Of a stretch of 64,000 bases of DNA, positions 29,632 to 42,427 are shown one piece after another. Position 1 is the first letter of the stretch. The number at the start of each line of letters is the position of its first letter. The stretch comes from Lentzea sp. NBRC 102530. Its GTDB lineage: Bacteria; Actinomycetota; Actinomycetes; Mycobacteriales; Pseudonocardiaceae. Position numbers and translations under genes: made by a program. The DNA is taken from positions 124,001 through 188,000 of the forward strand of contig NZ_BSTF01000018.1 in NCBI RefSeq assembly GCF_030269365.1, written 5' to 3'. The notes under the pieces were generated by a model. That model was not told the DNA's origin and ran no database searches. It worked only from the letters and a program-made list of their open reading frames with translations.

Positions 29632-30288
29632 CTAGCAGCCGCCGGCAAGCCGGACGACAGCCGCGCGGCACCTCTCCCACGACTCGGTCCCCGGCGTGAT
29701 CATGTCCATGTGCCCGGCCCCCTCCACGACGACGAGCTCCGCCTGCGGCTCCACGGCGCAAAAGCCGATCGACTGCTCCACGGGCACGTCCTCGTCGCGA
29801 TCACCGTGCACGCACACCACGGGCTTCCCGATCGGCACGAGCGCGGCGGGCGACGCGTCAGCGAACTGCTCCTCACCGCACAACTCCAAGGCGCGGGGCG
29901 TGATGTGCCGCGTGAAGTCCAGGACCCCGGCCTGCGACACCGCCCCGCACACCCGCGCACTGCGCTTCGCGGCCCACACGGCGAGATGCCCACCGGCGCT
30001 GTGCCCGAGGGTCACCACGGGTCCGAGGTCAACGGCGTCGATGGCGGCCAGCACGTCGTCCCCTGTTTCGGGCCACCCGCCCCCGCCGCCGACCCGCCGG
30101 TACTCGATGTTCCACACGCGGAACCCGTCAGCAACCAGCACCTCGGCCAACGGCCGCCCGAGTTCGAGCCCGTAACGCTGATGCCAAAAACCACCGTGAA
30201 TGACGACAACAGCACCCTGAGCAACTCCGTCCGGTTCGTAAAGCTCACCGAACTGACTGGCGTGGTCACCGTAAGCAATTCGCTGCAC
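29632..30288 (-). CDS. alpha/beta hydrolase
   Basis: A 218-residue hydrolase resembling the kynurenine formamidase / BD-FAE type: oxyanion segment VVVIHGGFWHQRYG near residue 30, nucleophile GHSAGGHLAVW near 95, acid in HGDRDEDVP near 160, and catalytic His in VEGAGHMDMI near 190. GTG 30288 (VQRIAYGDHASQF) was chosen because family members start just before this segment. A longer frame exists upstream but is Cys-rich and unconvincing. The 5' part of the gene and the DNA before it are noticeably richer in A/T than the neighbours. Confidence 0.82.
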   Translation of the reverse strand: MQRIAYGDHASQFGELYEPDGVAQGAVVVIHGGFWHQRYGLELGRPLAEVLVADGFRVWNIEYRRVGGGGGWPETGDDVLAAIDAVDLGPVVTLGHSAGGHLAVWAAKRSARVCGAVSQAGVLDFTRHITPRALELCGEEQFADASPAALVPIGKPVVCVHGDRDEDVPVEQSIGFCAVEPQAELVVVEGAGHMDMITPGTESWERCRAAVVRLAGGC

Positions 30289-30560
30289 ACGCAGAAAGTA
30301 CAGAAAAACGGCAACACCCTCACGCAACCAAGCACAAGAGGTTGTGTAATCGTTCACAAGCCCCTTAAAACGTTTCACCGCCCCAACAAGGCACCACGAG
30401 ACCAAGTGCTCGCCAGCCGAGCACGATCGGGGGACAAAACACGAGCCACAAGGCCGCACACCTGGCAAGCAGGCGATCAGGGCGACATTTCGTCGGCCAC
30501 CAAGGCCACCTACGCAGGCCAGCGCCCCGTTTCGTCACGGACGCCGAGGTTCCCGTGATG
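30289..30560. other. intergenic region upstream of the hydrolase operon
   Basis: No convincing gene. The first 80 bp are AT-rich for this genome and would form the promoter and leader of the hydrolase-TetR-HIT operon on the minus strand. A TTGTG-N8-CACAA dyad lies at 30342-30359. The rest, up to the hairpin element, is ordinary GC-rich DNA with no recognisable feature. Confidence 0.6.
30342..30359 (-). promoter_or_regulatory. candidate operator dyad of the hydrolase/TetR operon
   Basis: TTGTGTAATCGTTCACAA: five-base inverted arms (TTGTG / CACAA) around an 8-base AT-rich centre, 54-71 bp upstream of the hydrolase start. Size and place suit a TetR-family operator. There is only one copy, so confidence is low. 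Confidence 0.3.
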
Positions 30561-30754
30561 GGCGCCCGACGCCGAAGGCGAGGGCGCCGGGGGTCCGGGG
30601 GCTTGCCCCCGGCGTGGGGTTTGGGGGCTCGGCCCCCAAAAGACACCCTTTTGGTGCGGGCGGCGAAGGCGCGCCAGCGCCGAGCAGCCCGCACCAAAAC
30701 CAAAAGGGGCGCCTCGCGGTCCGAAGCCTGGGGGTCGCTTCGCCGCGAGGCGCC
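30561..30754. repeat. five-hairpin intergenic element
   Basis: Five consecutive inverted repeats: GGCGCCC/GGGCGCC (30561-30567, 30582-30588); CCGGGGGC/GCCCCCGG (30595-30602, 30605-30612); TTTGGGGGC/GCCCCCAAA with a TCG loop (30620-30640); a perfect 13-bp pair TTTTGGTGCGGGC/GCCCGCACCAAAA (30649-30661, 30687-30699); and a perfect 12-bp pair GGCGCCTCGCGG/CCGCGAGGCGCC (30708-30719, 30743-30754). CCCTTTTGG and CCAAAAGGG also pair around the fourth. No coding frame is credible. It lies between the rsmE stop and the hydrolase promoter. Confidence 0.85.
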
Positions 30755-30936
30755 GACGCCGGACCGAGGGGGGAGGTGTCCGGCGAGTCTTTTGGTCAGA
30801 AGAGCCTAATCGTCTACGCCGTTTCCGGATAGACCAATCAGCCCCTCTGCGATCCAGGGTAACCCCATCGGCCTGGGATTCGCTACAACTTCCGTCAAGC
30901 CAATCCATCCGATGTTCATCTCGGTAGTGATCGGGG
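30755..30936. other. non-coding spacer between hairpin element and rsmE
   Basis: No gene seen. The 150 bases before the rsmE stop are less GC-rich than the flanks, with stretches such as CTAATCGTCTACG, and show no clear stem-loop or promoter. They could hold the rsmE 3' untranslated end. Confidence 0.5.
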
Positions 30937-31668
30937 TCACCACCGCGCGGTGCGGACCCCGATGGCACCAAGAGCAACGGCCGCGGCGGTAGATGCACGC
31001 AGAACGGTTGGCCCCAATCGGACCACACGGGCACCCGATGATCGCAACGCGTCGAGTTCCTCGGGGGTGATTCCGCCTTCGGGACCCACCACGAGCAGCA
31101 CGTCCCCCTCAGCCGGCAACGGCACGTCGGCGAGTCGTTCCTCCGCGCTCTCGTGCAACACGAGCGTCAACGCGGACGACGACACGCGCTGAGAAAGCTG
31201 AGTGGTGCTCACGGGTTCGTCGACGACCGGCACCCGCGAGCGGCGGGCCTGCTTCGCCGCCTCGCGGACCGTGGATCGCCAGCGCCCCAGCGCCTTCGCG
31301 CCGCGCGGGCCGTCCTCCCACTTGGTGATGCACCGGGAGGCGCGCCACGGCACCACACCGTCGACGCCGGCCTCGGTGGCGAGCTCGACGGCGAGCTCGC
31401 CCCGGTCGCCCTTCACCAGCGCCTGGGCCAGCACGACCCGCGGCGTCGGCTCGGGCTCCACCCAGCGTTCGACCACCCGCAACGACAACGCGTCGCGTTC
31501 CACCGCCACGACCGCGCACCGCACCTGGGCACCGGACCCGTCGGACAGCACGAGCTCTTCACCCACGCGCAGGCGCTTGACCGTGGCGGCGTGCCGGCCT
31601 TCCGGGCCGTCCAGCACGAACTCCTCGCCCGGCGGCAACGCCGGGACGAGGAAGACCGGCAGCGTCAC
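30937..31668 (-). CDS. rsmE: 16S rRNA (uracil-1498-N3)-methyltransferase RsmE
   Basis: A SPOUT-class enzyme that methylates U1498 of 16S rRNA in the decoding centre. 243 residues. The N-terminal PUA-like domain has [25 protein letters not shown]. The knot region has [18 protein letters not shown] near residue 190, and [20 protein letters not shown] completes the SAM site. GTG 31668 overlaps the dnaJ stop (GTGA), the conserved dnaJ-rsmE arrangement. Confidence 0.95.
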
Positions 31669-32813
31669 CGGTGGCCGCGCGAGGCACGCAGGCGGGAGAA
31701 CAGGCCTCCGCCGCCCTTGCCGTTGTGCGCCAACGAGGGCTCGCTCTCGCCGCGCAGGTCGGCGAGGTCGCGCAGCAGTGCGGACTGGGCGGCGTCGAGC
31801 TTGGTGGGCACGACGACCTCGAGGTGCACGTGCAGGTCGCCGCGGCCGTCGACGCGGCCGGTGGACCGCAGCTTCGGCATGCCGCGGCCCGTCATCACGA
31901 GCTGCGTGCCGGGCTGGGTGCCGGGGTCGATCTGGAGTTCTTCCTCGCCGTCCAAGGTCTTCAACGGCAGTGTGGCGCCCAGCGCGGCCGTCGTCATCGG
32001 GATCTGCACGATGCAGTGCAGGTCGGCGCCGTCGCGTTCGAAGATCTCGTGCGGGTGTTCCTCGACCTCGACGTAGAGGTCACCGGCCGGGCCGCCGCCG
32101 GGGCCGACCTCGCCCTGGCCCGCGAGCCGCACGCGCATGCCCTCGGCGACGCCGGCGGGGATGTTCACGGAGATCGTGCGGCGCGAGCGGGTGCGGCCGT
32201 CGCCGGCGCACTGCTGGCACGGGTCGGGGATGACCTCGCCGTAGCCGCGGCAGACCGGGCACGGGCGGGACGTCACGACCTGGCCCAGGAACGAGCGCTG
32301 CACGGACTGGACCTCGCCGCGGCCGTGGCAGGTGTCGCACTGGACGGGCTTGGAGTTGTTCTGCGTGCCGGCGCCGTGGCAGCGGTCGCACAGGATCGCC
32401 GTGTCGACGGTCAGCTCACGGGTGGCGCCCGCCGCGCACTCCTCCAGCGTCATGTCGAGCCGGATCAACGCGTCGGAGCCGGGCTGCACGCGGCTGCGCG
32501 GACCCCGGCCACCACCGGACGAGGCGCCGAAGAAGGCGTCCATGATGTCGCCGAGGCCGAAGCCCGCGAACGGGTCGCCGCCCGCGCGGCCACCGCCGCC
32601 GGAGTCGAGCGGGTCGCCTCCCAGGTCGACGACGCGGCGCTTCTCGGGGTTCGACAACACCTCGTAGGCGGCCGTCACCTCCTTGAAGCGGGCCTCCTCG
32701 TTGGGATTGACGTCCGGGTGCAGCTGCCTGGCGAGCTTGCGATAGGCGCGCTTGATCTCATCCTGTGTCGCGTTCTGCGAGACACCGAGGATGCCGTAGT
32801 AATCCCTGGCCAC
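31665..32813 (-). CDS. dnaJ: chaperone DnaJ (DnaJ2 type)
   Basis: Co-chaperone of DnaK. The J domain has DYYGILGV and the HPD motif in [17 protein letters not shown] Gly-rich linker follows ([15 protein letters not shown]). Four CxxCxGxG-type zinc repeats are present ([32 protein letters not shown]). The C-terminal substrate domains end with [16 protein letters not shown] prefer GTG 32813 (VARDYYG), the normal family start. ATG 32834 would add seven residues. Without an adjacent dnaK, this is the second DnaJ paired with hrcA, as in mycobacterial Rv2373c-Rv2374c. Confidence 0.95.
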
Positions 32814-32856
32814 CTTGTTCGCTTTCATGTTCATCTCAAGTGCAAGAAGTTTCTGA

Positions 32857-33879
32857 TCAACGACCGGTCAGGATCTCACCGACGTAGTTGGCAACCGCGC
32901 GGACGGCCGCCATGGTTCCCGGGTAGTCCATGCGAGTGGGCCCCACCACACCGAGCCCGCCGAGCGGGTTGTCCCGGCTGCCGTAGCCGATCGACACCAC
33001 GGACGTGCTGCGCATCTCCGCGGCCTCGTTCTCCTCGCCGATGCGCACCAGCACGCGGCCGGGGTCCCGGGAGGCGGCGAGCAGCTTGAGCACGACGACC
33101 TGCTCCTCCAACGCCTCGAGCACCTGGCGCAGCGAGCCCGGGAAGTCGGTGATGCTGCGCGTGAGGTTCGCGGTGCCGCCGAGCACCAGCCGTTCTTCGG
33201 GGTGCTCCACCAACGTCTCGATGAGCACAGTAGCGACTCGCAGCATCGGGTCGCGCAGGTTCGACGGAACCTCGTCCGGCAACTCGGCGACCTTGGCACT
33301 CGCCTCCGCGAGCCGCTGACCCGCCATCGCCTGGTTCAGCACGCCGCGCAACTGGGCCGTGTGCTCCTCGGAGATGACGTCCCCGAGCTCCACGATCCGC
33401 TGGTCGACGCGCCCGGTGTCGGTGATCAGCACCAGCATCAGCCGCGACGGCGTGATCGGCAGCACCTCCAGGTGCCGCACGGCCGCGCGCGACAACGTCG
33501 GCACCTGGATCACCGCGACCTGCCGCGTCAGCTGGGCGAGCAGCCGGACGCTGCGGCGCATCACGTCGTCGAGGTCGATCGCCCCGTCCAGGAAGCTGCG
33601 GATCGCCCGCTTCTCGGCCTGCGAGAGCGGCTTGACCTCGCTCAGCTTGTCCACGAACAGCCGGTAGCCCTTGTCCGTCGGCACGCGCCCGGCGCTGGTG
33701 TGCGGCTGGGCGATGTACCCGTCGTCCTCCAGCGCGGCCATGTCGTTGCGCACGGTCGCGCTCGACACACCCAGGTTGTGCCTCTCGACCAGGGCTTTCG
33801 ACCCGACGGGCTCCTGGTTGGACACGTAGTCGGCGACGATGGCGCGCAGCACCTCGAACCGACGCTCATCGGCGTTCAC
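32857..33879 (-). CDS. hrcA: heat-inducible transcription repressor HrcA
   Basis: Represses chaperonin genes by binding CIRCE elements. 340 residues: an N-terminal winged helix ([41 protein letters not shown]; the recognition helix is [10 protein letters not shown]), then the GAF-like and dimerisation domains. GTG 33879. No CIRCE sequence was found upstream of it, so it does not appear to regulate itself through that site. Its targets (groES/groEL) lie outside this window. hrcA-dnaJ-rsmE form one strand-coherent unit. Confidence 0.95.
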
Positions 33880-34004
33880 CGCTGTTCACCTCCGTGTCCA
33901 CTGCACCCGAGTTTACCCAGCCGGATTCCTGCCTGGTGCGCGCTCTGAAGTCGTGCTCGATCGGGGCTCCGGTTTTTGTCGGTGCCGCTCGCTAGGGTCC
34001 AAAC

Positions 34005-34211
34005 GTGGGCGAAGTGGTGTGGCTGCGGCCACCTGAGCCGGAACCGGGGAGACCGTGCCTGGTCCACAGCGACGACCAGTGGTGGGAGGGAACCGTGGTG
34101 TGGGAGGAGGTCAGGCGCGAGGACGGGCTGTGGTGGGGCACCGCGACCTACCTGAAGAACGGCGAGGAGGTCGTCGAGGTGTTCAGCCAGCACGACCTGC
34201 GCGCCCGCTGA
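34005..34211 (+). CDS. small conserved hypothetical protein (68 aa)
   Basis: A 68-residue protein rich in Trp and Glu (DDQWWEGTVVWEEVRREDGLWWGTATYLKNGEEVVEVF in outline), predicted to be a small beta barrel like SH3/Tudor domains. GTG 34005 (VGEVVWLRPPEPEPG). It lies between divergent hrcA and convergent hemW, with the hemW stop one base after its own. No membrane segment. Function unknown. Confidence 0.72.
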   Translation: MGEVVWLRPPEPEPGRPCLVHSDDQWWEGTVVWEEVRREDGLWWGTATYLKNGEEVVEVFSQHDLRAR

Positions 34212-34212
34212 A

Positions 34213-35421
34213 CTAAGGCAACAAGCGCCTGACCACGGCGTCGGCGAGTAGCCGGCCCCGGTCGGTGAGCACGCAGCGGTCGTCGAGCGGCTCCAGCAGC
34301 CCGTCGGCGACCGCCTGTTTGGCCGCGTCCCGCCCTTCGGCGTCCAGCACGTCGAGCGGCAGGCCCTCGGCCAGGCGCAGTTCGAGCAGCACCCGTTCCA
34401 CGCGCTGGTCTTCGAGGGACAACGTCTCGCGCCCCGCGGCGGGCGAGTTGCCCTCGGCCAGCAGGGACGAGTAGCGGGCCGGGTGCTTGACGTTCCAGAA
34501 CCGGACGCCGCCGACGTGGCTGTGCGCGCCGGGGCCGAAGCCCCACCAGTCGGCGCCCTTCCAGTACAGGACGTTGTGGCGGCACCGGGCCGAGGCCGAG
34601 GTCGCCCAGTTCGACACCTCGTACCAGGAGAAGCCGGCACCGCTCAGCACGGAGTCGACCATCTCGTAGGACGACGCCAGCACGTCGTCGTCGGGCATCG
34701 GGAGGTCGCCCCGGCGGATGCGGCGGGCGAGACCGGTGCCGTCCTCGACGATCAACGCGTAGGCGGACACGTGGTCGACGCCCGCGGCCAGCACGGCGTC
34801 CAGGGACGCGGCGAGGTCCGAGGGGCGCTCCCCCGGCGTGCCGTAGATCAGGTCCAGGTTCACGTGCTCGAACCCGGCGGCGCGTGCCTCGCGGGCGGCT
34901 TCACCCGGACGGCCGGGGGTGTGCTTGCGGTCCAGCACGGCGAGGACGTGGCGGGCCGCCGACTGCATGCCCAGGGAGACACGGGTGTAGCCGGCGTCCC
35001 GGATTCCCTCGAAGAACGAAGAAGAGGTCGACTCGGGGTTCGACTCGGTCGTCACCTCGGCGCCGGGGGCCAGGCCGAAGGACTGCCGCACGGCGTCCAG
35101 GACGTCGCGAAGACCCGAGGCGCCGAGCAAAGAAGGCGTTCCGCCGCCCACGAACACGGTTTCGGCCGGCGGGGGCGATCCGAGCACGGACGCGGCGAGG
35201 TCGAGTTCGCGGCGCAGGCCCTCGAGCCACGACTCGGGTGAGGCGGAGGTGCCGAGTTCGCCGGGCGTGTAGGTGTTGAAGTCGCAGTAGCCGCAGCGGG
35301 TCGCGCAGAACGGCACGTGCACGTAGATGCCGAACGGGCGCGAACCGACACCGGCGAGAGCGGAACTGGGCAGCGAACCGTCGGCGGGCGCGGGCTCGCC
35401 TTCGGGCAGAGCGGAGGGCAT
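34213..35421 (-). CDS. hemW: heme chaperone HemW (radical SAM, HemN-like)
   Basis: A 402-residue radical SAM protein. The iron-sulfur motif is CATRCGYCDFNTY near residue 38 (CxxxCxxC plus the Cys-less HemW variant of the following position). GGGTPSLLG and ESNPES follow, with an HTH-like C-terminal domain. HemW inserts heme into respiratory targets. The extra N-terminal residues that distinguish true oxygen-independent coproporphyrinogen oxidase HemN are absent. ATG 35421. In M. tuberculosis the same gene (Rv2388c) also stands just before sirA-cysH. Confidence 0.94.
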   Translation of the reverse strand: MPSALPEGEPAPADGSLPSSALAGVGSRPFGIYVHVPFCATRCGYCDFNTYTPGELGTSASPESWLEGLRRELDLAASVLGSPPPAETVFVGGGTPSLLGASGLRDVLDAVRQSFGLAPGAEVTTESNPESTSSSFFEGIRDAGYTRVSLGMQSAARHVLAVLDRKHTPGRPGEAAREARAAGFEHVNLDLIYGTPGERPSDLAASLDAVLAAGVDHVSAYALIVEDGTGLARRIRRGDLPMPDDDVLASSYEMVDSVLSGAGFSWYEVSNWATSASARCRHNVLYWKGADWWGFGPGAHSHVGGVRFWNVKHPARYSSLLAEGNSPAAGRETLSLEDQRVERVLLELRLAEGLPLDVLDAEGRDAAKQAVADGLLEPLDDRCVLTDRGRLLADAVVRRLLP

Positions 35422-35475
35422 GACTCTCAGTGTCCCCCACGCGGCCCGAACGGCGGTGTCCGACCAGGCGAAGTG

Positions 35476-35490
35476 TCTGTCGGTGACAGA
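35476..35490 (+). promoter_or_regulatory. dyad upstream of the cysteine operon leader
   Basis: TCTGTCGGTGACAGA: perfect six-base arms around GGT, in the 172-bp gap between hemW and the leader peptide. It could be an operator for a sulfur regulator or a small hairpin. No clear -35/-10 pair was identified. Confidence 0.35.
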
Positions 35491-35593
35491 ACTATCACAG
35501 AGCGAAACCGGCAGAAGATGTCAACTTCTCCTCGTGGATCCCAGCATTCGGTTGGCGGTGGACCACGGTCTGGACGGCATGCACACTGAGGTC

Positions 35594-35680
35594 ATGCATT
35601 CGACTGGAGTCCGCCTCGTGGCCCGCCGCCACGTCGACTTCCGTCGTGTCTCCAGCGCGATGTGCCGTCGTTCGGCATGA
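35594..35680 (+). CDS. cysteine-operon leader peptide (28 aa)
   Basis: ATG 35594 encodes a 28-residue peptide ending at TGA 35678-35680. It contains LVARRHVDFRRVSSAMCRR, the signature of short leader peptides found in front of sulfur-assimilation genes in many actinobacteria (an Arg-rich middle, then a Cys close to the stop). The likely role is to sense Cys-tRNA or nascent peptide state by ribosome position, altering folding of the hairpins at 35701-35721 and 35741-35784. It stands 110 bases before the sulfite reductase start. Confidence 0.8.
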   Translation: MHSTGVRLVARRHVDFRRVSSAMCRRSA

Positions 35681-35700
35681 CCCTGCGCTGATTTGTTCCC

Positions 35701-35721
35701 GTCAGCGCTTGGTGCGCTGAC
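35701..35721 (+). promoter_or_regulatory. stem-loop after the leader peptide (putative attenuator)
   Basis: GTCAGCGC and GCGCTGAC pair perfectly across a five-base TTGGT loop, 20 bases after the leader stop. There is no U-run, so it may act as a pause/Rho-linked attenuator or a spacer rather than a classic terminator. Confidence 0.6.
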
Positions 35722-35740
35722 GACGCCCCCACCACAAGCA

Positions 35741-35784
35741 CCTCCGGGCTCGCACGCGCACGAAGCGCCTCGAAACCCCGGAGG
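35741..35784 (+). promoter_or_regulatory. stem masking the sulfite reductase ribosome-binding site
   Basis: CCTCCGGG (35741-35748) is the exact reverse complement of CCCGGAGG (35777-35784), whose GGAGG is the Shine-Dalgarno for the sulfite reductase start at 35791. The 28-base loop would leave the site closed unless the upstream strand is engaged. A translation-control element is therefore likely. Confidence 0.65.
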
Positions 35785-35790
35785 ATGGCG

Positions 35791-37470
35791 ATGGTCCCGC
35801 CGCAGACGTCACCGCGCGCCAAGCAGCGTCGCGGCGAGGGGCAGTGGGCACTCGGATACCGAGAGCCGCTGAACCCCAACGAGCGGAGCAAGAAGGACGA
35901 CAACCCGCTCAACGTCCGCGCCCGCATCGAGAACATCTACGCCCACGGCGGCTTCGACTCCATCGACCCGGCCGACCTGCGCGGGCGGTTCCGGTGGTAC
36001 GGCCTCTACACGCAGCGCAAGCCCGGCATCGACGGCGGCCGCACGGCCACGCTGGAGCCGGAGGAGCTGGACGACGAGTTCTTCATGATGCGCGTGCGCA
36101 GCGACGGCGGCGCGCTCACCACCGAGCAGCTGACGGTCCTGGGCGAGATCTCGCAGACCTACGCCCGCGACACCGCGGACATCACCGACCGGCAGAACAT
36201 CCAGTACCACTGGATCCGCGTCGAGGACGTCCCCACGATCTGGCAGAAGCTCGAAGCGGTGAACCTGACGACGATGGAGGCGTGTGGCGACAGCCCGCGC
36301 GTCATCCTCGGTTCGCCGGTCGCGGGCATCTCCTCCGACGAGATCATCAACGGCCAGCCGGCCATCGACACCATCCTCGAGCGCTACATCGGCGACCCGC
36401 GCTTCTCGAACCTGCCGCGCAAGTTCAAGACGGCCATCTCCGGCCTCCAAGACGTCGCGCACGAGATCCACGACATCGCGTTCGTCGGGGTGAACCACCC
36501 CGAGCACGGCCCCGGCTTCGACCTCTGGGTCGGCGGCGGCCTGTCCACGAACCCCATGCTGGGCAAGCGGTTGGGCGCCTGGGTGCCGCTCGACGAGGTG
36601 CCGGACGTGTGGGAGGCGGTCATCTCCGTCTTCCGCGACTACGGCTACCGCCGCCTGCGCCACCGCGCGCGCATCAAGTTCCTCGTCGCCGACTGGGGCC
36701 CGGAGAAGTTCCGCCAGGTCGTCGAGGACGAGTACCTGGGTCGCAAGATGATCGACGGCCCGGCGCCGGAGCAGCTGGACCAGCCGCTCGACCACATCGG
36801 CGTGCACAGGCAGAAGGACGGCCTGAACTACGTCGGCGCCGCGCCCGTCGCCGGCCGCGTGTCGGGTTCGATCCTGGTCGAGGTGGCCAAGTTCGCCGAA
36901 CGGGCGGGCTCGAACCGGGTCCGCTTCACGCCGCAGCAGAAGATCATCGTGCTGGACGTGCCGGACGCCGAGGTGCCGACGCTCAAGAGCGATCTCGCCA
37001 AGCTGGGCCTGCAGGTCGACCCGTCGCCGTGGCGGCGCGGCATCATGGCGTGCACCGGCATCGAGTTCTGCAAGCTCGCGATCGTCGAGACCAAGGCCCG
37101 CGCGCTGGACCTCGTCACGCAGCTCGAGGCGAACCTCAAGGACATCGTCGACGGCGTCACGGCGCCGATCACCGTGCACATCAACGGCTGCCCCAACTCC
37201 TGCGCCCGCATCCAGACCGCGGACATCGGCCTCAAGGGCCAGATCGTCACGGACGAGAGCGGCAACCAGGTCGAGGGCTTCCAGGTGCACCTCGGCGGCG
37301 GGCTCGGCCTCGACGCCGGGTTCGGCCGCAAGCTGCGCGGCCACAAGGTCACCGCGGCCGAGCTGCCCGAGTACGTCGAACGCGTGGTGCGCAACTTCGT
37401 GGCCCAGCGGGAGACCGACGAGCGCTTCGCCCAGTGGGTGGCCCGGGCCGAGGAGGGCTCGCTGCGATGA
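35791..37470 (+). CDS. sir: ferredoxin-type assimilatory sulfite reductase
   Basis: Reduces sulfite to sulfide with six electrons at a coupled siroheme / [4Fe-4S] centre. About 559 residues with the two sulfite/nitrite reductase halves. Cluster ligands are in CTGIEFCKLA near residue 428 and NGCPNSCARIQ near 465. Siroheme-binding basic residues include RHRARIKF and RVRFTPQQKI. ACGDSPR holds the Cys near residue 165 that in mycobacterial SirA/NirA forms a Tyr-Cys link. The 6-base spacing from GGAGG favours ATG 35791 over ATG 35785. Sulfite rather than nitrite as substrate is inferred from the cysH-cysD-cysN neighbours. Confidence 0.93.
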   Translation: MVPPQTSPRAKQRRGEGQWALGYREPLNPNERSKKDDNPLNVRARIENIYAHGGFDSIDPADLRGRFRWYGLYTQRKPGIDGGRTATLEPEELDDEFFMMRVRSDGGALTTEQLTVLGEISQTYARDTADITDRQNIQYHWIRVEDVPTIWQKLEAVNLTTMEACGDSPRVILGSPVAGISSDEIINGQPAIDTILERYIGDPRFSNLPRKFKTAISGLQDVAHEIHDIAFVGVNHPEHGPGFDLWVGGGLSTNPMLGKRLGAWVPLDEVPDVWEAVISVFRDYGYRRLRHRARIKFLVADWGPEKFRQVVEDEYLGRKMIDGPAPEQLDQPLDHIGVHRQKDGLNYVGAAPVAGRVSGSILVEVAKFAERAGSNRVRFTPQQKIIVLDVPDAEVPTLKSDLAKLGLQVDPSPWRRGIMACTGIEFCKLAIVETKARALDLVTQLEANLKDIVDGVTAPITVHINGCPNSCARIQTADIGLKGQIVTDESGNQVEGFQVHLGGGLGLDAGFGRKLRGHKVTAAELPEYVERVVRNFVAQRETDERFAQWVARAEEGSLR

Positions 37471-37625
37471 GCGAACGCGCGACGCCGTTCTACTGCCCCT
37501 ACTGCGGTGACGAGGACCTCCGCCCGCAGGAGGAACCCAGCTACGCGTGGCTGTGCACCGGATGCCGCCGCGTCTTCAAGGTCTCGTTCGTCGGGCTCAA
37601 CCTGCCGCAGGAGGTGAAGAAGTGA
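37467..37625 (+). CDS. small zinc-ribbon protein in the sulfur operon (52 aa)
   Basis: A 52-residue protein with two Cys pairs (CPYCGDEDLRP and CTGCRRVF), spaced as in a zinc ribbon or rubredoxin-like knuckle. ATG 37467 overlaps the sulfite reductase stop (ATGA) and its own stop overlaps the cysH start (GTGA), so it is made in step with both enzymes. A metal or redox helper for the reductases fits the place, but no function is known to me. Confidence 0.82.
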   Translation: MSERATPFYCPYCGDEDLRPQEEPSYAWLCTGCRRVFKVSFVGLNLPQEVKK

Positions 37626-38317
37626 GCGATCTCAAGGAAGACCTCAAGATCGTCGCCGATGCGGCCGAGCAGGAGCTGCGCGACGCGAGCCCCGAAGAGG
37701 CGCTGGAGTGGGTCGCGCGGACGTTCGGCGACAACTACATCGTCGCCTCGAACATGCAGGACGCCGTGCTGATCGACCTCGCCGCCAAGGTGAAGCCGAA
37801 CTTCGACGTGCTGTTCCTGGAGACGGGCTACCACTTCCCGGAGACCATCGGCGTGCGCGACGCCGTCGGGGTCGTCTACCCGGAGGTGCGGATCGTCAAC
37901 GCCGCCGCCGAGCAGTCCGTCGCGGACCAGGAGGCGGAGTTCGGCCTGCTGTACCAGTCGGACCCGGCCACGTGCTGCAACCTGCGCAAGGTCGTGCCGT
38001 TGCGCCGCGAGCTCGCGAAGTACGACGCCTGGGTCACCGGCGTGCGCCGCGTCGACGCGCCCACCCGCGCGAACACGCCGATCGTGCAGTGGGACGACCG
38101 CAACGGCCTGGTGAAGATCAACCCGATCGCGCCGTGGTCGGACGACGAGTTCAACGCCTACATCCACGAGAAGGGCATCCTCGAGAACCTGTTGGTGCAG
38201 GAGGGGTACCCCTCGATCGGCTGCCTGCCGTGCACCTCGAAGCCACTGCCGGGCCAGGACGCGCGCAGCGGCCGTTGGGCGGGGCAGTCGAAGACGGAAT
38301 GCGGGTTGCACGGATGA
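37622..38317 (+). CDS. cysH: iron-sulfur adenylylsulfate (APS) reductase CysH
   Basis: Converts APS to sulfite with thioredoxin. 231 residues: the PAPS-reductase fold with LFLETGYHFPET near residue 60. Paired cysteines are in DPATCCNLRK and IGCLPC. The CC...CxxC set marks the [4Fe-4S] enzymes that use APS rather than PAPS, in keeping with the absence of a cysC kinase gene here and with mycobacterial CysH. The C terminus SKTECGLHG carries the catalytic Cys. GTG 37622. Its stop overlaps the cysD ATG. Confidence 0.94.
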   Translation: MSDLKEDLKIVADAAEQELRDASPEEALEWVARTFGDNYIVASNMQDAVLIDLAAKVKPNFDVLFLETGYHFPETIGVRDAVGVVYPEVRIVNAAAEQSVADQEAEFGLLYQSDPATCCNLRKVVPLRRELAKYDAWVTGVRRVDAPTRANTPIVQWDDRNGLVKINPIAPWSDDEFNAYIHEKGILENLLVQEGYPSIGCLPCTSKPLPGQDARSGRWAGQSKTECGLHG

Positions 38318-39213
38318 CTCTCGCGCTGGACACGTTGGGGCGCCTCGAATCCGAGGCCATTCACATCTTCCGCGAGGTGGCGGGCGAGTTCGACCGGCCG
38401 GTGATCCTCTTCTCCGGCGGCAAGGACTCGACACTGCTGCTGCACCTCGCGATCAAGGCGTTCTACCCGGCGCCGGTGCCGTTCCCGTTGCTGCACGTCG
38501 ACACCGGGCACAACTTCGACGAGGTCATCGAGTTCCGCGACCGCGTCGTCGCCCGGCACGGCCTGCGCCTGGAGGTCGCGAAGGTCCAGGACTGGATCGA
38601 CGACGGCCGTCTGGAGGAACGCCCGGACGGCACGCGCAACCCGTTGCAGACCGTGCCGCTGCTGGACTCGATCACGCAGCACAAGTTCGACGCGGTCTTC
38701 GGCGGTGGCCGCCGGGACGAGGAACGCGCCCGCGCGAAGGAGCGGATCTTCAGCCTGCGCACGGCGTTCGGCCAGTGGGACCCGAAGCGGCAGCGCCCCG
38801 AGCTGTGGAACCTCTACAACGGCCGGCACCGCGCCGGTGAGCACGTCCGCGTGTTCCCGCTGTCCAACTGGACCGAGCTCGACGTGTGGAACTACATCGA
38901 GCGCGAGGGCATCGAGCTGCCGGACATCTACTACTCGCATCAGCGCGACGTGTTCCTGCGGGACGGCATGTGGCTCGCCGAGGGTCCGTGGGGCACCGCG
39001 CGTGAAGGCGAGACGCTGGAGCGCAAGACGGTTCGCTACCGCACGGTCGGCGACGGCTCCTGCACGGGCGCCGTCGAGTCCGACGCTTCCGACATCCACG
39101 CGGTGATCGCCGAGGTCGCCGCGTCACGACTGACCGAGCGCGGCGCCACACGGGCCGACGACCGGTTGTCCGAGGCCGCCATGGAAGACCGCAAGCGGGA
39201 GGGGTACTTCTAG
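38314..39213 (+). CDS. cysD: sulfate adenylyltransferase small subunit CysD
   Basis: The ATP pyrophosphatase subunit that makes APS from sulfate and ATP. 299 residues. The PP-loop FSGGKDSTLLLHLAIKAF starts near residue 32. LHVDTGHNFDEVIEFRD and FGGGRRDEERARAKERIFS follow. The N-type tail ends AAMEDRKREGYF, the standard CysD C terminus. ATG 38314 lies inside the cysH stop. The TAG stop is followed at once by the cysN ATG. Confidence 0.97.
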   Translation: MTLALDTLGRLESEAIHIFREVAGEFDRPVILFSGGKDSTLLLHLAIKAFYPAPVPFPLLHVDTGHNFDEVIEFRDRVVARHGLRLEVAKVQDWIDDGRLEERPDGTRNPLQTVPLLDSITQHKFDAVFGGGRRDEERARAKERIFSLRTAFGQWDPKRQRPELWNLYNGRHRAGEHVRVFPLSNWTELDVWNYIEREGIELPDIYYSHQRDVFLRDGMWLAEGPWGTAREGETLERKTVRYRTVGDGSCTGAVESDASDIHAVIAEVAASRLTERGATRADDRLSEAAMEDRKREGYF

Positions 39214-40557
39214 ATGAGCGACCTGTTGAGGCTGGCCACCGCGGGCAGCGTGGACGACGGCAAGTCCACGCTCGTCGGCAGGCTGCTCTACGACACCAAG
39301 TCGGTGCTCGCGGACACCCTGGACGCCGTGCACCGCGCGAGCGCCGACCGGGGTCTCGCGACGCCGGACCTGTCGCTGCTGGTCGACGGCCTGCGGTCGG
39401 AGCGCGAGCAGGGCATCACGATCGACGTGGCGTACCGCTACTTCGCGACGCCCAAGCGCTCGTTCGTGCTCGCCGACACCCCCGGTCACGTGCAGTACAC
39501 CCGCAACACCGTGACAGGCGCGTCCACCGCGCAGCTCGCGGTGCTGCTGGTCGACGCGCGCAAGGGCGTCATCGAGCAGACCCGGCGGCACGCGGCGGTG
39601 CTGGCGCTGCTGGGTGTGCCGCGGCTGGTGCTGGCGGTCAACAAGATCGACCTCGTGGGCTACGACGAGGTGATGTTCTCCCGCATCGCCAAGGAGTTCA
39701 CCGCGCACGCCACGGCGCTGGGCTACACCGAGGACTCGGTGGTCGAGATCCCGGTGTCGGCGCTGGCGGGCGACAACGTCGTGGAGAAGTCCGCGAACAC
39801 GCCCTGGTACTCCGGCCCGACCCTGCTGGAGCACCTGGAGACCGTGCCGGTCGAGCCCGACCCGCACGACGCGCCGTTCCGGTTCCCGGTGCAGTACGTG
39901 ATCCGCCCGCGCACGGCCGAACACCTCGACTACCGCGGCTACGCGGGCCTGGTCGCGGCGGGCACGGTCAAGCCGGGCGACGAGGTCGTGGTCCTCCCGT
40001 CGGGGCGGCGCTCGACCGTCACCAAGATCGACACGGCAGATGGCGAACTGGCCGAAGCGGCGGCCGGCCAGTCCGTCACGCTGCTGCTGGCCGACGACAT
40101 CGACATCTCCCGGGGCGACCTGATCTCGGTGGCGGGCAACGAACCCACCGTCACCGACGAGCTGGACGCCACCCTCTGCTGGCTCGCGGAGAAGCCGCTG
40201 CGCCCCGGCGCCCGAGTCCTCGTCAAGCACGGCACGCGCACCGTGCAGGCGATGGTCACCGACCTGCGCGACCGCTTCGACGAGCAGAAACTGTCCAGTG
40301 TGGACGGCCCTGCCTCGTTGGAGCTGAACGAGATCGGCCGAGTGGCTCTGCGTCTCGCAGAGCCCGTACCGCTGGACGACTACAGCTTCAGCCGGCGCAC
40401 CGGGTCCTTCCTGGTGATCGACGCGAGTGACGGTTCCACTCTCGCCGCCGGTCTGGTCGGGGCTCCGCTGCCGCTGCTCGAGAACGGCGTGGAGAGCTGT
40501 ACCGGGGGTAGCACCGCTACCCCCGACAACCACGCCCTCGTCTCCCCCGGTCCCTGA
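39214..40557 (+). CDS. cysN: sulfate adenylyltransferase large subunit CysN (GTPase)
   Basis: The EF-Tu-like GTPase that drives APS formation by CysD. 447 residues: G1 GSVDDGKST (residues 11-19), the switch region SEREQGITIDVAYRYF, G3 DTPGH, G4 NKID, then two beta-barrel domains. There is no fused C-terminal APS kinase (CysC), unlike mycobacterial CysNC, so PAPS would have to be made elsewhere if at all. ATG 39214 directly abuts the cysD stop. Confidence 0.96.
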   Translation: MSDLLRLATAGSVDDGKSTLVGRLLYDTKSVLADTLDAVHRASADRGLATPDLSLLVDGLRSEREQGITIDVAYRYFATPKRSFVLADTPGHVQYTRNTVTGASTAQLAVLLVDARKGVIEQTRRHAAVLALLGVPRLVLAVNKIDLVGYDEVMFSRIAKEFTAHATALGYTEDSVVEIPVSALAGDNVVEKSANTPWYSGPTLLEHLETVPVEPDPHDAPFRFPVQYVIRPRTAEHLDYRGYAGLVAAGTVKPGDEVVVLPSGRRSTVTKIDTADGELAEAAAGQSVTLLLADDIDISRGDLISVAGNEPTVTDELDATLCWLAEKPLRPGARVLVKHGTRTVQAMVTDLRDRFDEQKLSSVDGPASLELNEIGRVALRLAEPVPLDDYSFSRRTGSFLVIDASDGSTLAAGLVGAPLPLLENGVESCTGGSTATPDNHALVSPGP

Positions 40558-40572
40558 AAGGCCTGAAACCCC

Positions 40573-41622
40573 GTGAACCTCAAGCCCGCCCTTGCCGTCG
40601 CTCTGATCGCTCTGACAGCCATCTCCGGGTGCAGCCGCGCCGGAAGCAGTGACACCCCCGCCGCCGAGTCCAAGGGCGCCGCCGCCGAGGTCCGCCTCGG
40701 GTACTTCCCGAACATCACCCACGCCGCCGCGCTGATCGGCGTCGAGAAGGGCTTGTACGCCAAGGAACTCGGCAACACCAAGCTCACGACGCAGACGTTC
40801 AACGCGGGCCCCGACGAGGTCAACGCCCTGCTGGGCGAGTCGCTCGACATCGCCTACATCGGCTCCGGCCCGGCGATCAACGCCTACTCGAAGTCCAAGG
40901 GCGAGGCCGTGAAGCTCATCGCGGGCGCCACCTCGGGCGGTGCGCAGCTCGTGGTGAAGCCCGAGATCAACTCGATCGAGGACCTCAAGGGCAAGGTCGT
41001 CGCCACGCCGCAGCTCGCGAACACGCAGGACGTGTCGCTGAAGAAGTACCTGGCGGAGAAGAACCTCACCGGTCAGGTCACCGTGCAGAACGTGGAGAAC
41101 GCCGCCTCGCTCGACCTGTTCAAGAAGGGCGACATCCAGGCCGCGTGGGCGCCGCAGCCGTGGTCGTCCCGCATCGTCGCCGAGGGCGGTGGCAAGGTGC
41201 TGCTCGACGAGAAGACGCTGTGGGAGGGCGGGGCGTTCCCGACCACCGTCGTCATCGTGCGGACGAAGTTCCTGCAGGAGCACCCGGAGACCGTCGAGGC
41301 CGTGCTGAAGGGCCACGTCGCCGCGATCGACTGGGCGAAGGCCAACAAGGACGAGGCCAAGAAGGCCGCCAACGCGCACCTGGAGAAGCTCACGTCCAAG
41401 AAGCTCGGCGACAAGATCCTCGACGCCGCGTGGGACAACATCGAGCTGACCACCGACGCGCAGGCCAAGCACTTCCCGCAGCTCGCGAAGGACGCCGTGA
41501 CCGCCGGGGTGGCCAAGGAGGCCGCGAACGTCGCCGGGTACGCCGACTTCACGGTGCTGAACAAGGTCCTGCAGGCGCAGGGCAAGCCGCAGGTGCAGGC
41601 CGCGGGCCTGGACAAGAAGTAG
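40573..41622 (+). CDS. ssuA: ABC transporter substrate-binding lipoprotein, sulfonate/taurine type
   Basis: A 349-residue lipoprotein. The signal peptide ends in the lipobox AISGC near residue 20, then a Ser/Ala linker. The mature domain follows the SsuA/TauA/NitT periplasmic fold (EVRLGYFPNITHAAALIGVEKGLYAKEL, PDEVNALLGESLDIAYIGSGPAINAY in outline). Directly after cysN and before its ATPase and permease, it probably brings aliphatic sulfonates, sulfate esters or a similar sulfur source into the operon's pathway. A nitrate/bicarbonate-type ligand cannot be ruled out from sequence. Confidence 0.88.
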   Translation: MNLKPALAVALIALTAISGCSRAGSSDTPAAESKGAAAEVRLGYFPNITHAAALIGVEKGLYAKELGNTKLTTQTFNAGPDEVNALLGESLDIAYIGSGPAINAYSKSKGEAVKLIAGATSGGAQLVVKPEINSIEDLKGKVVATPQLANTQDVSLKKYLAEKNLTGQVTVQNVENAASLDLFKKGDIQAAWAPQPWSSRIVAEGGGKVLLDEKTLWEGGAFPTTVVIVRTKFLQEHPETVEAVLKGHVAAIDWAKANKDEAKKAANAHLEKLTSKKLGDKILDAAWDNIELTTDAQAKHFPQLAKDAVTAGVAKEAANVAGYADFTVLNKVLQAQGKPQVQAAGLDKK

Positions 41623-41650
41623 CACTTCTGACGCGAGGGGAAGACACACC

Positions 41651-42427
41651 ATGACCGCCACGCTCGAAACCGCTCTTCTGTCCACCGCGGACACCGCCGT
41701 CGCACTGTCGGCCGTCCGCAAGGTCTTCGGCCACGGCAGTTCGGCCGTGGTGGCGCTCGACGGGGTGGACCTCAAGGTCAAGCCCGGCGAGTTCGTGTGT
41801 CTTCTCGGCGCGTCCGGCTGCGGCAAGAGCACGCTGCTCAACATCGTCGCGGGCCTCGACGGCGCGACGTCCGGCGAGCTGCAGATCAACACCTCGCGCC
41901 CGGCCGTGATGTTCCAGGAACCCGCTTTGATGCCGTGGCTGACCGCGGCCCGCAACGTCGAACTGGCGCTGCGCTTCGCCGGCGTCGGCCGTCTGGCGCG
42001 CAAGCGCCGTGCGTTGGAGCTGCTGGAACTGGTGCGGCTGGGCGACGTCGCGGACAAGCGTCCGCACGAGCTCTCCGGTGGTATGCGTCAGCGCGTGGCC
42101 CTGGCTCGCGCGCTGGCGTCCACCACCGTGTCCGCTGACGGTTCGCCTGCTCTGCTGCTGATGGACGAGCCCTTCGCGGCGTTGGACGCCATCACGCGTG
42201 ACGTGCTGCAAAGCGAACTGCTGCGCGTGTGGGAAACCACGAACACCGCCATCATCTTCGTGACGCACGACGTGCGTGAGGCCGTCCGCCTCGGCCAGCG
42301 CGTCGTGCTGCTGTCCTCGCGCCCCGGCCGCGTGGTGCGCGAGTGGGACGTGACCGACTCTTCCGACGCCGTTCTCGACGAGATCAACACCCATCTGCGA
42401 GAGGTCATCAGTGGCCACGCCTCCTGA
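41651..42427 (+). CDS. ssuB: ABC transporter ATP-binding protein, SsuB type
   Basis: A 258-residue importer ATPase. Walker A is GASGCGKST near residue 55, the Q-loop is FQEPALMPWL, the signature is LSGGMRQRVALARAL, Walker B is LLLMDEPFAALDA, and the switch His is in FVTHDVREA. All catalytic positions are intact. ATG 41651. The last 17 bases overlap the permease gene, so the two are coupled. Confidence 0.93.
   Translation: MTATLETALLSTADTAVALSAVRKVFGHGSSAVVALDGVDLKVKPGEFVCLLGASGCGKSTLLNIVAGLDGATSGELQINTSRPAVMFQEPALMPWLTAARNVELALRFAGVGRLARKRRALELLELVRLGDVADKRPHELSGGMRQRVALARALASTTVSADGSPALLLMDEPFAALDAITRDVLQSELLRVWETTNTAIIFVTHDVREAVRLGQRVVLLSSRPGRVVREWDVTDSSDAVLDEINTHLREVISGHAS

Follow-up and report, generated by a model that had tools for sequence, protein, structure and literature searches.

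Upstream of a putative sulfite reductase gene in Lentzea sp. NBRC 102530, a 28-codon open reading frame (ORF) is followed by an RNA segment that can fold into two competing hairpins. We read this arrangement as an attenuator in which the ribosome links expression of the sulfate-assimilation genes to the supply of cysteine, and we give this reading a probability of about two in three. The element lies within a stretch of 64,000 nucleotides (nt) of contig NZ_BSTF01000018.1 (positions 124,001 to 188,000), here called the window and numbered from its first letter. Support from the sequence consists of the family membership of the peptide, its conservation, and two hairpins, A:B and B:C, that share arm B (Table 1); the sensing of cysteine, the direction of the response and its output, be it termination or translation, are proposed by analogy with known attenuators.

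To judge from its sequence, the ORF is indeed a leader: its peptide belongs to a known family, of which it represents a single-Cys form. The peptide passes the NCBIfam model NF042934 (cis_reg_atten, 'putative leader peptide') with 30.9 bits at a cut-off of 27, residues 6-24 aligning to profile positions 1-19 of 19 and hence to the whole model; against NF042936 (Ms4527A family Cys-rich leader peptide) it likewise reaches 30.9 bits, which is below the cut-off of 45. We take Ms4527A itself to precede a sulfite reductase gene. The window leader has one Cys codon and no row of adjacent Cys codons ahead of its stop; it reads RVSSAMC where mycobacterial counterparts read RVCSCCC or RVCTCCC. The peptide thus appears as a single-Cys relative of the described mycobacterial cysteine attenuator. 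A first-pass annotation of this DNA had located a 28-residue peptide 110 bases 5' of the reductase start, and both the ORF (35594-35680) and the ATG (35791) were verified. It had also regarded the peptide as a separate, little-described Arg/His type; this distinction falls away, because the peptide passes NF042934, its mycobacterial counterparts at the orthologous gene are Cys-rich, and leaders from genomes other than the mycobacterial and Nocardia-type ones usually have a single Cys. Its proposed layout for cysteine-responsive attenuation stands with regard to a conserved, NCBIfam-recognised leader with a Cys near its end, and not with regard to the masking of the Shine-Dalgarno (SD) sequence treated below. 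Given the Cys codon near the end of the ORF, the conservation before the same gene and the recognition by NCBIfam, cysteine-responsive attenuation is the best reading, with translation of the leader and its response to Cys predicted rather than observed.

The conservation analysis covers regions upstream of the orthologous reductase from 24 genomes of the genus and 117 of 143 other sampled genomes of the family; 26 of these 143 non-Lentzea genomes were left out, as was one of 46 genera (g11), whose locus is truncated by a contig end. The search expression fixes some core residues, Cys included. A matching peptide precedes the reductase at 140 of the 141 family loci and in all 45 genera. The sole locus without a recognisable leader is L090; its genus is represented by six loci, and a leader is present at the other five. 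One Cys is found in 125 of the 140 leaders and two in the remaining 15, the listed pairs not being adjacent. Leaders are also present at 55 of 60 loci from other families (one genome each); the misses are L220, which is truncated by a contig end, and L209, L229, L230 and L261, which do not match the expression used. Among 80 named loci 77 have a leader, the misses being two Aeromicrobium loci and one Streptomyces contig with just 137 nt upstream; the other-family, named-locus and family sets may overlap. In the named loci, Mycobacterium and Mycolicibacterium carry RVCSCCC, RVCSCSC or RVCTCCC and Nocardia carries RVCSACC; Streptomyces, Actinoplanes and most Pseudonocardiaceae have a single Cys in this segment, several Streptomyces peptides having another Cys outside it. 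On this distribution the single-Cys form is widespread, and the extra Cys residues look like a change within the mycobacterial line. Tyr replaces His (RRYVD or RRYLD) in L134, L144, L145, L148-L153 and L156-L160; among the named loci, such leaders belong to Saccharopolyspora and Actinopolyspora. A His-requiring expression yields a set of 126 leaders from 38 genera, missing 15 of the 141 loci, 14 of them with RRYVD or RRYLD; the results given below on the promoter, on ribosome position, on SD masking and on covariation in 38 genera rest on this smaller set.

The family is not confined to one locus per genome. NF042934 matches at E up to 0.001 occur in 171 of 246 genomes sampled across the class (over the cut-off in 151), with up to 14 in a listed genome, and at the same threshold in none of 14 control genomes. 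The window's genome contains three matches over the cut-off, the window's own included, and five below it; six of these eight resemble Cys-ending leaders, namely the window's own and L060, L061, L063, L064 and L065. Their spacers measure 38-72 nt, compared with 110 nt at the reductase. In favour of the attenuator reading, three of them stand ahead of sulfur genes. One such gene encodes a bifunctional O-acetylhomoserine/O-acetylserine sulfhydrylase, whose match exceeds its cut-off; another encodes an SsuE-type FMN reductase, whose 159.8 bits fall slightly short of 164.05. At the third locus an ORF by eye resembles a thiosulfate sulfurtransferase, the first ORF there being without an NCBIfam match. 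In two genomes of another family (L194, L195), a leader ending in ARLHVDLCRLASGLCRPDGSR(D/G) lies 190 nt 5' of an ORF that by eye resembles the alpha subunit of a 2-oxoacid:acceptor oxidoreductase, a gene that one would not usually expect behind a cysteine leader.

Directly past the leader ORF we find mutually exclusive hairpins, as in classical attenuators. The perfect stem reported at first pass (35701-35708 with 35714-35721) is present and grows to 9 base pairs with C35700-G35722. Arm A (35685-35692), which had gone unnoticed, pairs with arm B; since A and C share B as a partner, only one hairpin can form at a time. Arm A begins 4 nt 3' of the leader stop codon, so it would be covered by a ribosome at the stop and would likely be free when the ribosome is stalled at Cys. 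The earlier placement of the stalled ribosome just before the first stem therefore needs adjustment: the Cys codon is 34 nt 5' of that stem, and it is arm A that follows Cys closely. The leader region as a whole folds with z = -3.67, one of 200 shuffles being equally good. The evidence on the hairpins covers the window's family, and Rfam yields no match at E up to 1 in window positions 30000-42000.

The covariation analysis suggested at first pass favours B:C. The alignment contains 64 sequences, with at most two per genus plus three from Lentzea (67 less three that were too short or duplicated another), and shows 43 both-side changes against 20.1 +/- 3.7 in shuffles (0/500). The covariation score is 0.226, compared with 0.166 for shuffles and at most 0.098 for versions slid out of register; in the same 64 sequences, the number of pairs with a both-side change and the number of pair types are not above shuffles. 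An alignment of 45 genera gives 30.0 both-side changes against 14.6 +/- 3.5 (0/500 shuffles). For A:B, the alignment of 38 genera gives 12.2 against 5.9 +/- 2.0 (0/500 shuffles). A test that depends little on alignment compares the duplex energies of the arms with those of shuffled arms at 136 loci from 45 genera: A:B beats the shuffles with p = 8.8e-8 (34 of 45 genera) and B:C with p = 1.7e-5 (32 of 45 genera), and three other arm pairings display no clear effect in these genera (p = 0.086, 0.6 and 0.89).

Three further pairings were considered. One, of the Ser-Ser-Ala codons with arm C, is possible: it has 7.5 both-side cells against 2.7 +/- 1.3 (0/500 shuffles, 45 genera), but its duplex energies are no better than those of shuffles (p = 0.6). 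Arm C with a downstream element D is not supported and gives 6.6 against 6.5 in 38 genera and 12.0 against 8.4 +/- 2.5 in 45 genera, a value reached by 11.6% of shuffles. A stem at the end of the ORF (UGCCG/CGGCA) is weak, with 5.0 against 3.1 +/- 1.5, reached by 5.0% of shuffles (45 genera).

According to the proposed mechanism, transcription would start at or near the leader ATG, as the promoter spacing suggests, and the leader would be translated from the 5' end of the mRNA. With plentiful Cys-tRNA, the ribosome would clear the single Cys codon, reach the stop codon and cover arm A, and B would pair with C. With scarce Cys-tRNA, it would stall while the Cys codon occupies the A site, 19 nt 5' of arm A; arm A, being free, would then capture B and break B:C. 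By analogy with known attenuators, B:C would be the state of low and A:B that of high expression, and control would extend over the reductase, cysH, cysD and cysN, the ssuA-type gene probably being included. Because B:C is not followed by a T-run, two outputs are considered: termination within a C-rich stretch past arm C, dependent on Rho or on coupling, or an effect on initiation at an already masked SD sequence. This stretch (35723-35747) is rich in C and poor in G, and CCCACCAC recurs in several genera; it is a possible Rho-loading region.

To model the ribosome position, the footprint is held unpaired in equilibrium folding of the 126 leaders, the arms being placed in 122. Over the family, the modelled probability of A:B is 0.43 and that of B:C 0.13 with the ribosome stalled at Cys, compared with 0.085 and 0.28 with the ribosome at the stop codon. 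Within the model, this shift with ribosome position runs in the direction of a classical attenuator.

Several results weigh against the attenuator. One is the window's own sequence, for which the model gives B:C at 0.97 with the ribosome at Cys and at 1.00 with the ribosome at the stop; as B:C prevails in both states, the equilibrium model displays no switch there. A:B prevails only without a ribosome (0.84 in the model), so a switch would need the order of co-transcriptional folding or factors outside the model. Covariation in A:B depends on the alignment: in 45 genera it drops to 7.0 both-side changes against 4.2 +/- 1.9, a value that 4.8% of shuffles attain, and sliding A:B by -2, -1 or +1 columns in this alignment gives more both-side cells (14, 13 and 11), with paired cells at 0.31-0.46 compared with 0.71 in the unslid register. 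The register of arm A varies among genera. Taken individually, just 16 (A:B) and 9 (B:C) of the 45 genera lie below 5% of shuffles in the energy test. RNAalifold gives no useful consensus, with a stem of three pairs and almost no energy in one run and zero pairs in another. A covariance model, R1, is unspecific (E = 0.16 for the window element, E = 0.56 for the best of 60 other-family loci), and extending the hairpins to other families by means of it was dropped for this reason. No intrinsic terminator with a T-run is found in 35400-35850. Modelled access to the SD sequence is alike when the RNA is free (0.227 unpaired), when the ribosome is stalled at Cys (0.222) and when it is at the stop (0.212). 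One Cys codon is a weak sensor unless the pause is prolonged. Finally, two leaders of the same genome stand before unexpected targets with no evident link to sulfur; one is a ROK-type regulator and the other a DctA/GltP-type symporter, neither of which reaches an NCBIfam cut-off.

Among the alternatives, translational attenuation by SD masking alone, with A, B and C incidental, would follow the precedent of M. smegmatis, where, as Canestrari is said to have found, a stalled ribosome blocks a structure sequestering the ribosome-binding site. The stem of 8 base pairs over the GGAGG of the reductase, claimed at first pass, does exist (CCTCCGGG at 35741-35748 with CCCGGAGG at 35777-35784), is perfect and, by eye, is mostly kept in 24 Lentzea-type sequences, in some with G-U pairs. 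For M. smegmatis, PMC13236596 describes cysteine genes as subject to translation attenuation. The stem is, however, weakened in L018 and L029, and it lacks covariation in the alignments of both 38 and 45 genera, the latter with 2.0 both-side cells against 2.1 +/- 1.3 in shuffles. Nor does masking exceed that of shuffled spacers (unpaired 0.227 against 0.249 in the model; Wilcoxon p = 0.21, 22 of 38 genera), and the modelled access is equal in all three ribosome states, at 0.17 in each for the window itself. Masking as a key part of the layout, and as a conserved regulatory element, is thus poorly supported; the stem may be locally relevant, and we consider an attenuator based on it alone unlikely.

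The peptide may act by another route, as a conditional arrest peptide whose nascent LVxRRHVDxxRVSSAxC pauses the ribosome, the Cys codon triggering or timing the pause. To examine selection, 140 leaders from 45 genera were counted with weights per genus, free positions being those unfixed by the search expression. Leu-16 (45.0/45), Val-15 (44.0), Arg-12 (43.0) and Arg-6 (44.5) are kept at free positions through several synonymous codons, which for Arg-6 are CGT, CGC, CGG, CGA and AGG. The pairwise ratio of nonsynonymous to synonymous differences (pN/pS) is 0.30 in the 17-codon core, partly by construction since it includes residues fixed by the expression; it is 0.51 at the ten free core positions and 0.87 in the eight N-terminal codons. 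The peptide itself thus appears to be under constraint, which is moderate at the free positions. An arrest peptide would also agree with the occurrence, within a single genome, of related motifs ahead of different genes and at other distances from them, and with a single Cys being enough in most genera examined. Opposed to it are the merely moderate constraint at the free core positions, the possibility that common descent explains the shared residues, and codons that look constrained as RNA. The two Ser codons (35651-35656) are mostly TCC and then AGC over 45 genera. At Ser-4, TCC accounts for 30.3/33.9, a preference that may reflect codon bias or RNA constraint, and TCG for 3.0; an apparent avoidance of TCG in the set of 126 leaders is partly due to the 14 missing loci. 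Ser-3 is AGC in 42.8/45 and AGT in 2.2/45, and as AGY and TCN are two changes apart, AGY may be merely inherited. We regard the arrest peptide as possible though somewhat doubtful; it is compatible with the hairpin switch. A constitutive leader, or a small protein with a function of its own, would likewise explain, with no attenuation involved, a core conserved as protein. The fixed position before the same gene in distant families, the Cys near the stop codon, the extra Cys in mycobacterial counterparts and the covarying RNA directly past the stop codon all speak against such a protein, which makes it highly improbable.

The proposed start of transcription at the leader finds some support in the upstream sequence. 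In 126 of 126 leaders, a -10-like hexamer whose second base is A and whose sixth is T ends at a distance of 5-9 nt 5' of the start codon, the start codon being the best of one to three candidates in a choice that favours the pattern; at random upstream positions its frequency is 9.9%. The full TAnnnT occurs in none of the 126, and a scan for E. coli-type sigma-70 promoters gives no match. Strings similar to TGGACC or TAGACC are seen by eye, unscored, in many genus representatives. The leader mRNA is likely leaderless or nearly so. At 35558-35566, over the -35-like box, lies the palindrome GTGGACCAC, which by eye recurs in nearly all Lentzea sequences and several genus representatives; it is a candidate operator as well as a candidate promoter element.

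The genes that would be controlled are listed in Table 1. Every NCBIfam match of the reductase is under its cut-off, and its five nearest named homologues are from Lentzea species (93-98% identity). We take it as a sulfite reductase because cysH, cysD and cysN follow; all four genes lie downstream of the leader on the same strand. With the zinc-ribbon-like ORF, cysH, cysD, cysN and the SsuA-family gene downstream, the unit is interpreted as a sulfate-assimilation operon. Its first gene probably starts at ATG 35791, which is preferred over ATG 35785 because GGAGG lies 6 nt upstream of it and ATG 35785 is lost in the relative L029. The zinc-ribbon-like ORF is the tail of the frame 35844-37625. 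For cysH, the coordinates are those of the frame from its first GTG, and the real start is probably further in; for cysD, the TIGR02039 match begins at residue 211 of the longer frame 37708-39213. On the other side of the leader, a HemW-type radical SAM gene (242 bits, cut-off 205.4) is oriented divergently.

Table 1. Features of the leader region and the downstream operon (window coordinates).
Feature	Coordinates	Strand	Remarks
-35-like hexamer TGGACC	35559..35564	+	17 nt 5' of the -10-like hexamer; read from the sequence
-10-like hexamer CACACT	35582..35587	+	6 nt 5' of the leader ATG
Leader peptide ORF, 28 residues, MHSTGVRLVARRHVDFRRVSSAMCRRSA	35594..35680	+	ATG 35594 to TGA 35680; NF042934 match
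Single Cys codon TGC, presumed sensor	35663..35665	+	read from the ORF
Arm A	35685..35692	+	pairs with B; fold, and duplex energy against shuffled A
Arm B	35700..35708	+	common to hairpins A:B and B:C
Arm C	35714..35722	+	pairs with B; covariation and duplex energy
SD-masking stem, 5' arm CCTCCGGG	35741..35748	+	fold; no covariation support across genera
SD-masking stem, 3' arm CCCGGAGG, including GGAGG 35780-35784	35777..35784	+	fold
NirA/CysI-type assimilatory sulfite (or nitrite) reductase, first operon gene	35791..37470	+	Pfam NIR_SIR domains
Small zinc-ribbon-like ORF, 52 residues, overlapping the reductase end	37467..37625	+	weak zinc-ribbon matches below cut-off (scan from 37473)
cysH, phosphoadenylyl-sulfate reductase	37547..38317	+	NF002537, 254.9 bits (cut-off 154)
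cysD, sulfate adenylyltransferase small subunit, start approximate	38317..39213	+	TIGR02039, 452.4 bits (cut-off 396.6)
cysN, sulfate adenylyltransferase large subunit	39214..40557	+	TIGR02034, 564.8 bits (cut-off 336.1)
SsuA-family sulfonate-binding protein	40573..41622	+	TIGR01728, 211.4 bits (cut-off 163.5)

Classical trp-type transcription attenuators combine a leader ORF, a sensor codon and mutually exclusive hairpins. The window shares with them the ORF, the sensor codon and the overlapping alternative hairpins, and differs in the lack of a T-run terminator, in having a single sensor codon and in being probably leaderless. NF042934, matched over its 19 positions, is a model of the peptide, and the RNA arms are outside its scope. 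With the polycysteine attenuators of NF042936 and M. smegmatis, the window leader has in common LVARRH(V/I)D(F/L)KRV and the position before the orthologous reductase; these have several Cys where the window has one, the window peptide scores under their 45-bit cut-off, and the evidence for A:B and B:C comes from the window's family only. According to papers citing Canestrari 2020, the polycysteine leaders of M. smegmatis were reported as cysteine-responsive attenuators. Seliverstov 2005 (PMC1262725) predicts leaders with Cys runs before cys genes in Mycobacterium, Propionibacterium and Bifidobacterium, notes no conserved terminator hairpins and suggests Rho; the window resembles these short Cys-ending ORFs before cys genes, also in the lack of a conserved intrinsic terminator, and differs from what is described there by a hairpin that covaries and by having one Cys only. 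Shell 2015 (PMC4633059) reports mycobacterial upstream ORFs that are leaderless and rich in Cys, and a reannotation of S. lividans (PMC8079986) describes, in the part consulted, eight leader peptides, none assigned to cysteine. Among the matches listed from open PubMed Central (PMC) titles and abstracts, to which the search extended and not to subscription papers, none concerns the motif in actinomycetes or the A:B/B:C switch. Less has been described of the competition between the hairpins and of how common the single-Cys form is.

For the actinomycetes, these results tie an ORF that looks unannotated to a family carried by many genomes, the described examples that we found being the Cys-rich mycobacterial ones. 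As a tentative and rather unlikely extension, the prevalent, and perhaps ancestral, form of cysteine attenuation in actinobacteria might be a conditional arrest peptide instead of a polycysteine ruler. Its conserved nascent chain, LVxRRHVDxxRVSSAxC, would render the ribosome hypersensitive to one Cys codon; in Pseudonocardiaceae-type genomes this stall would also set the hairpin switch, and the extra Cys of mycobacteria and their relatives would have come later. How one Cys codon can suffice, and whether selection acts on the codon, on the nascent peptide or on the RNA, becomes a testable question, and the competing hairpins, a defined pair outside every Rfam family, offer a candidate for the switch.

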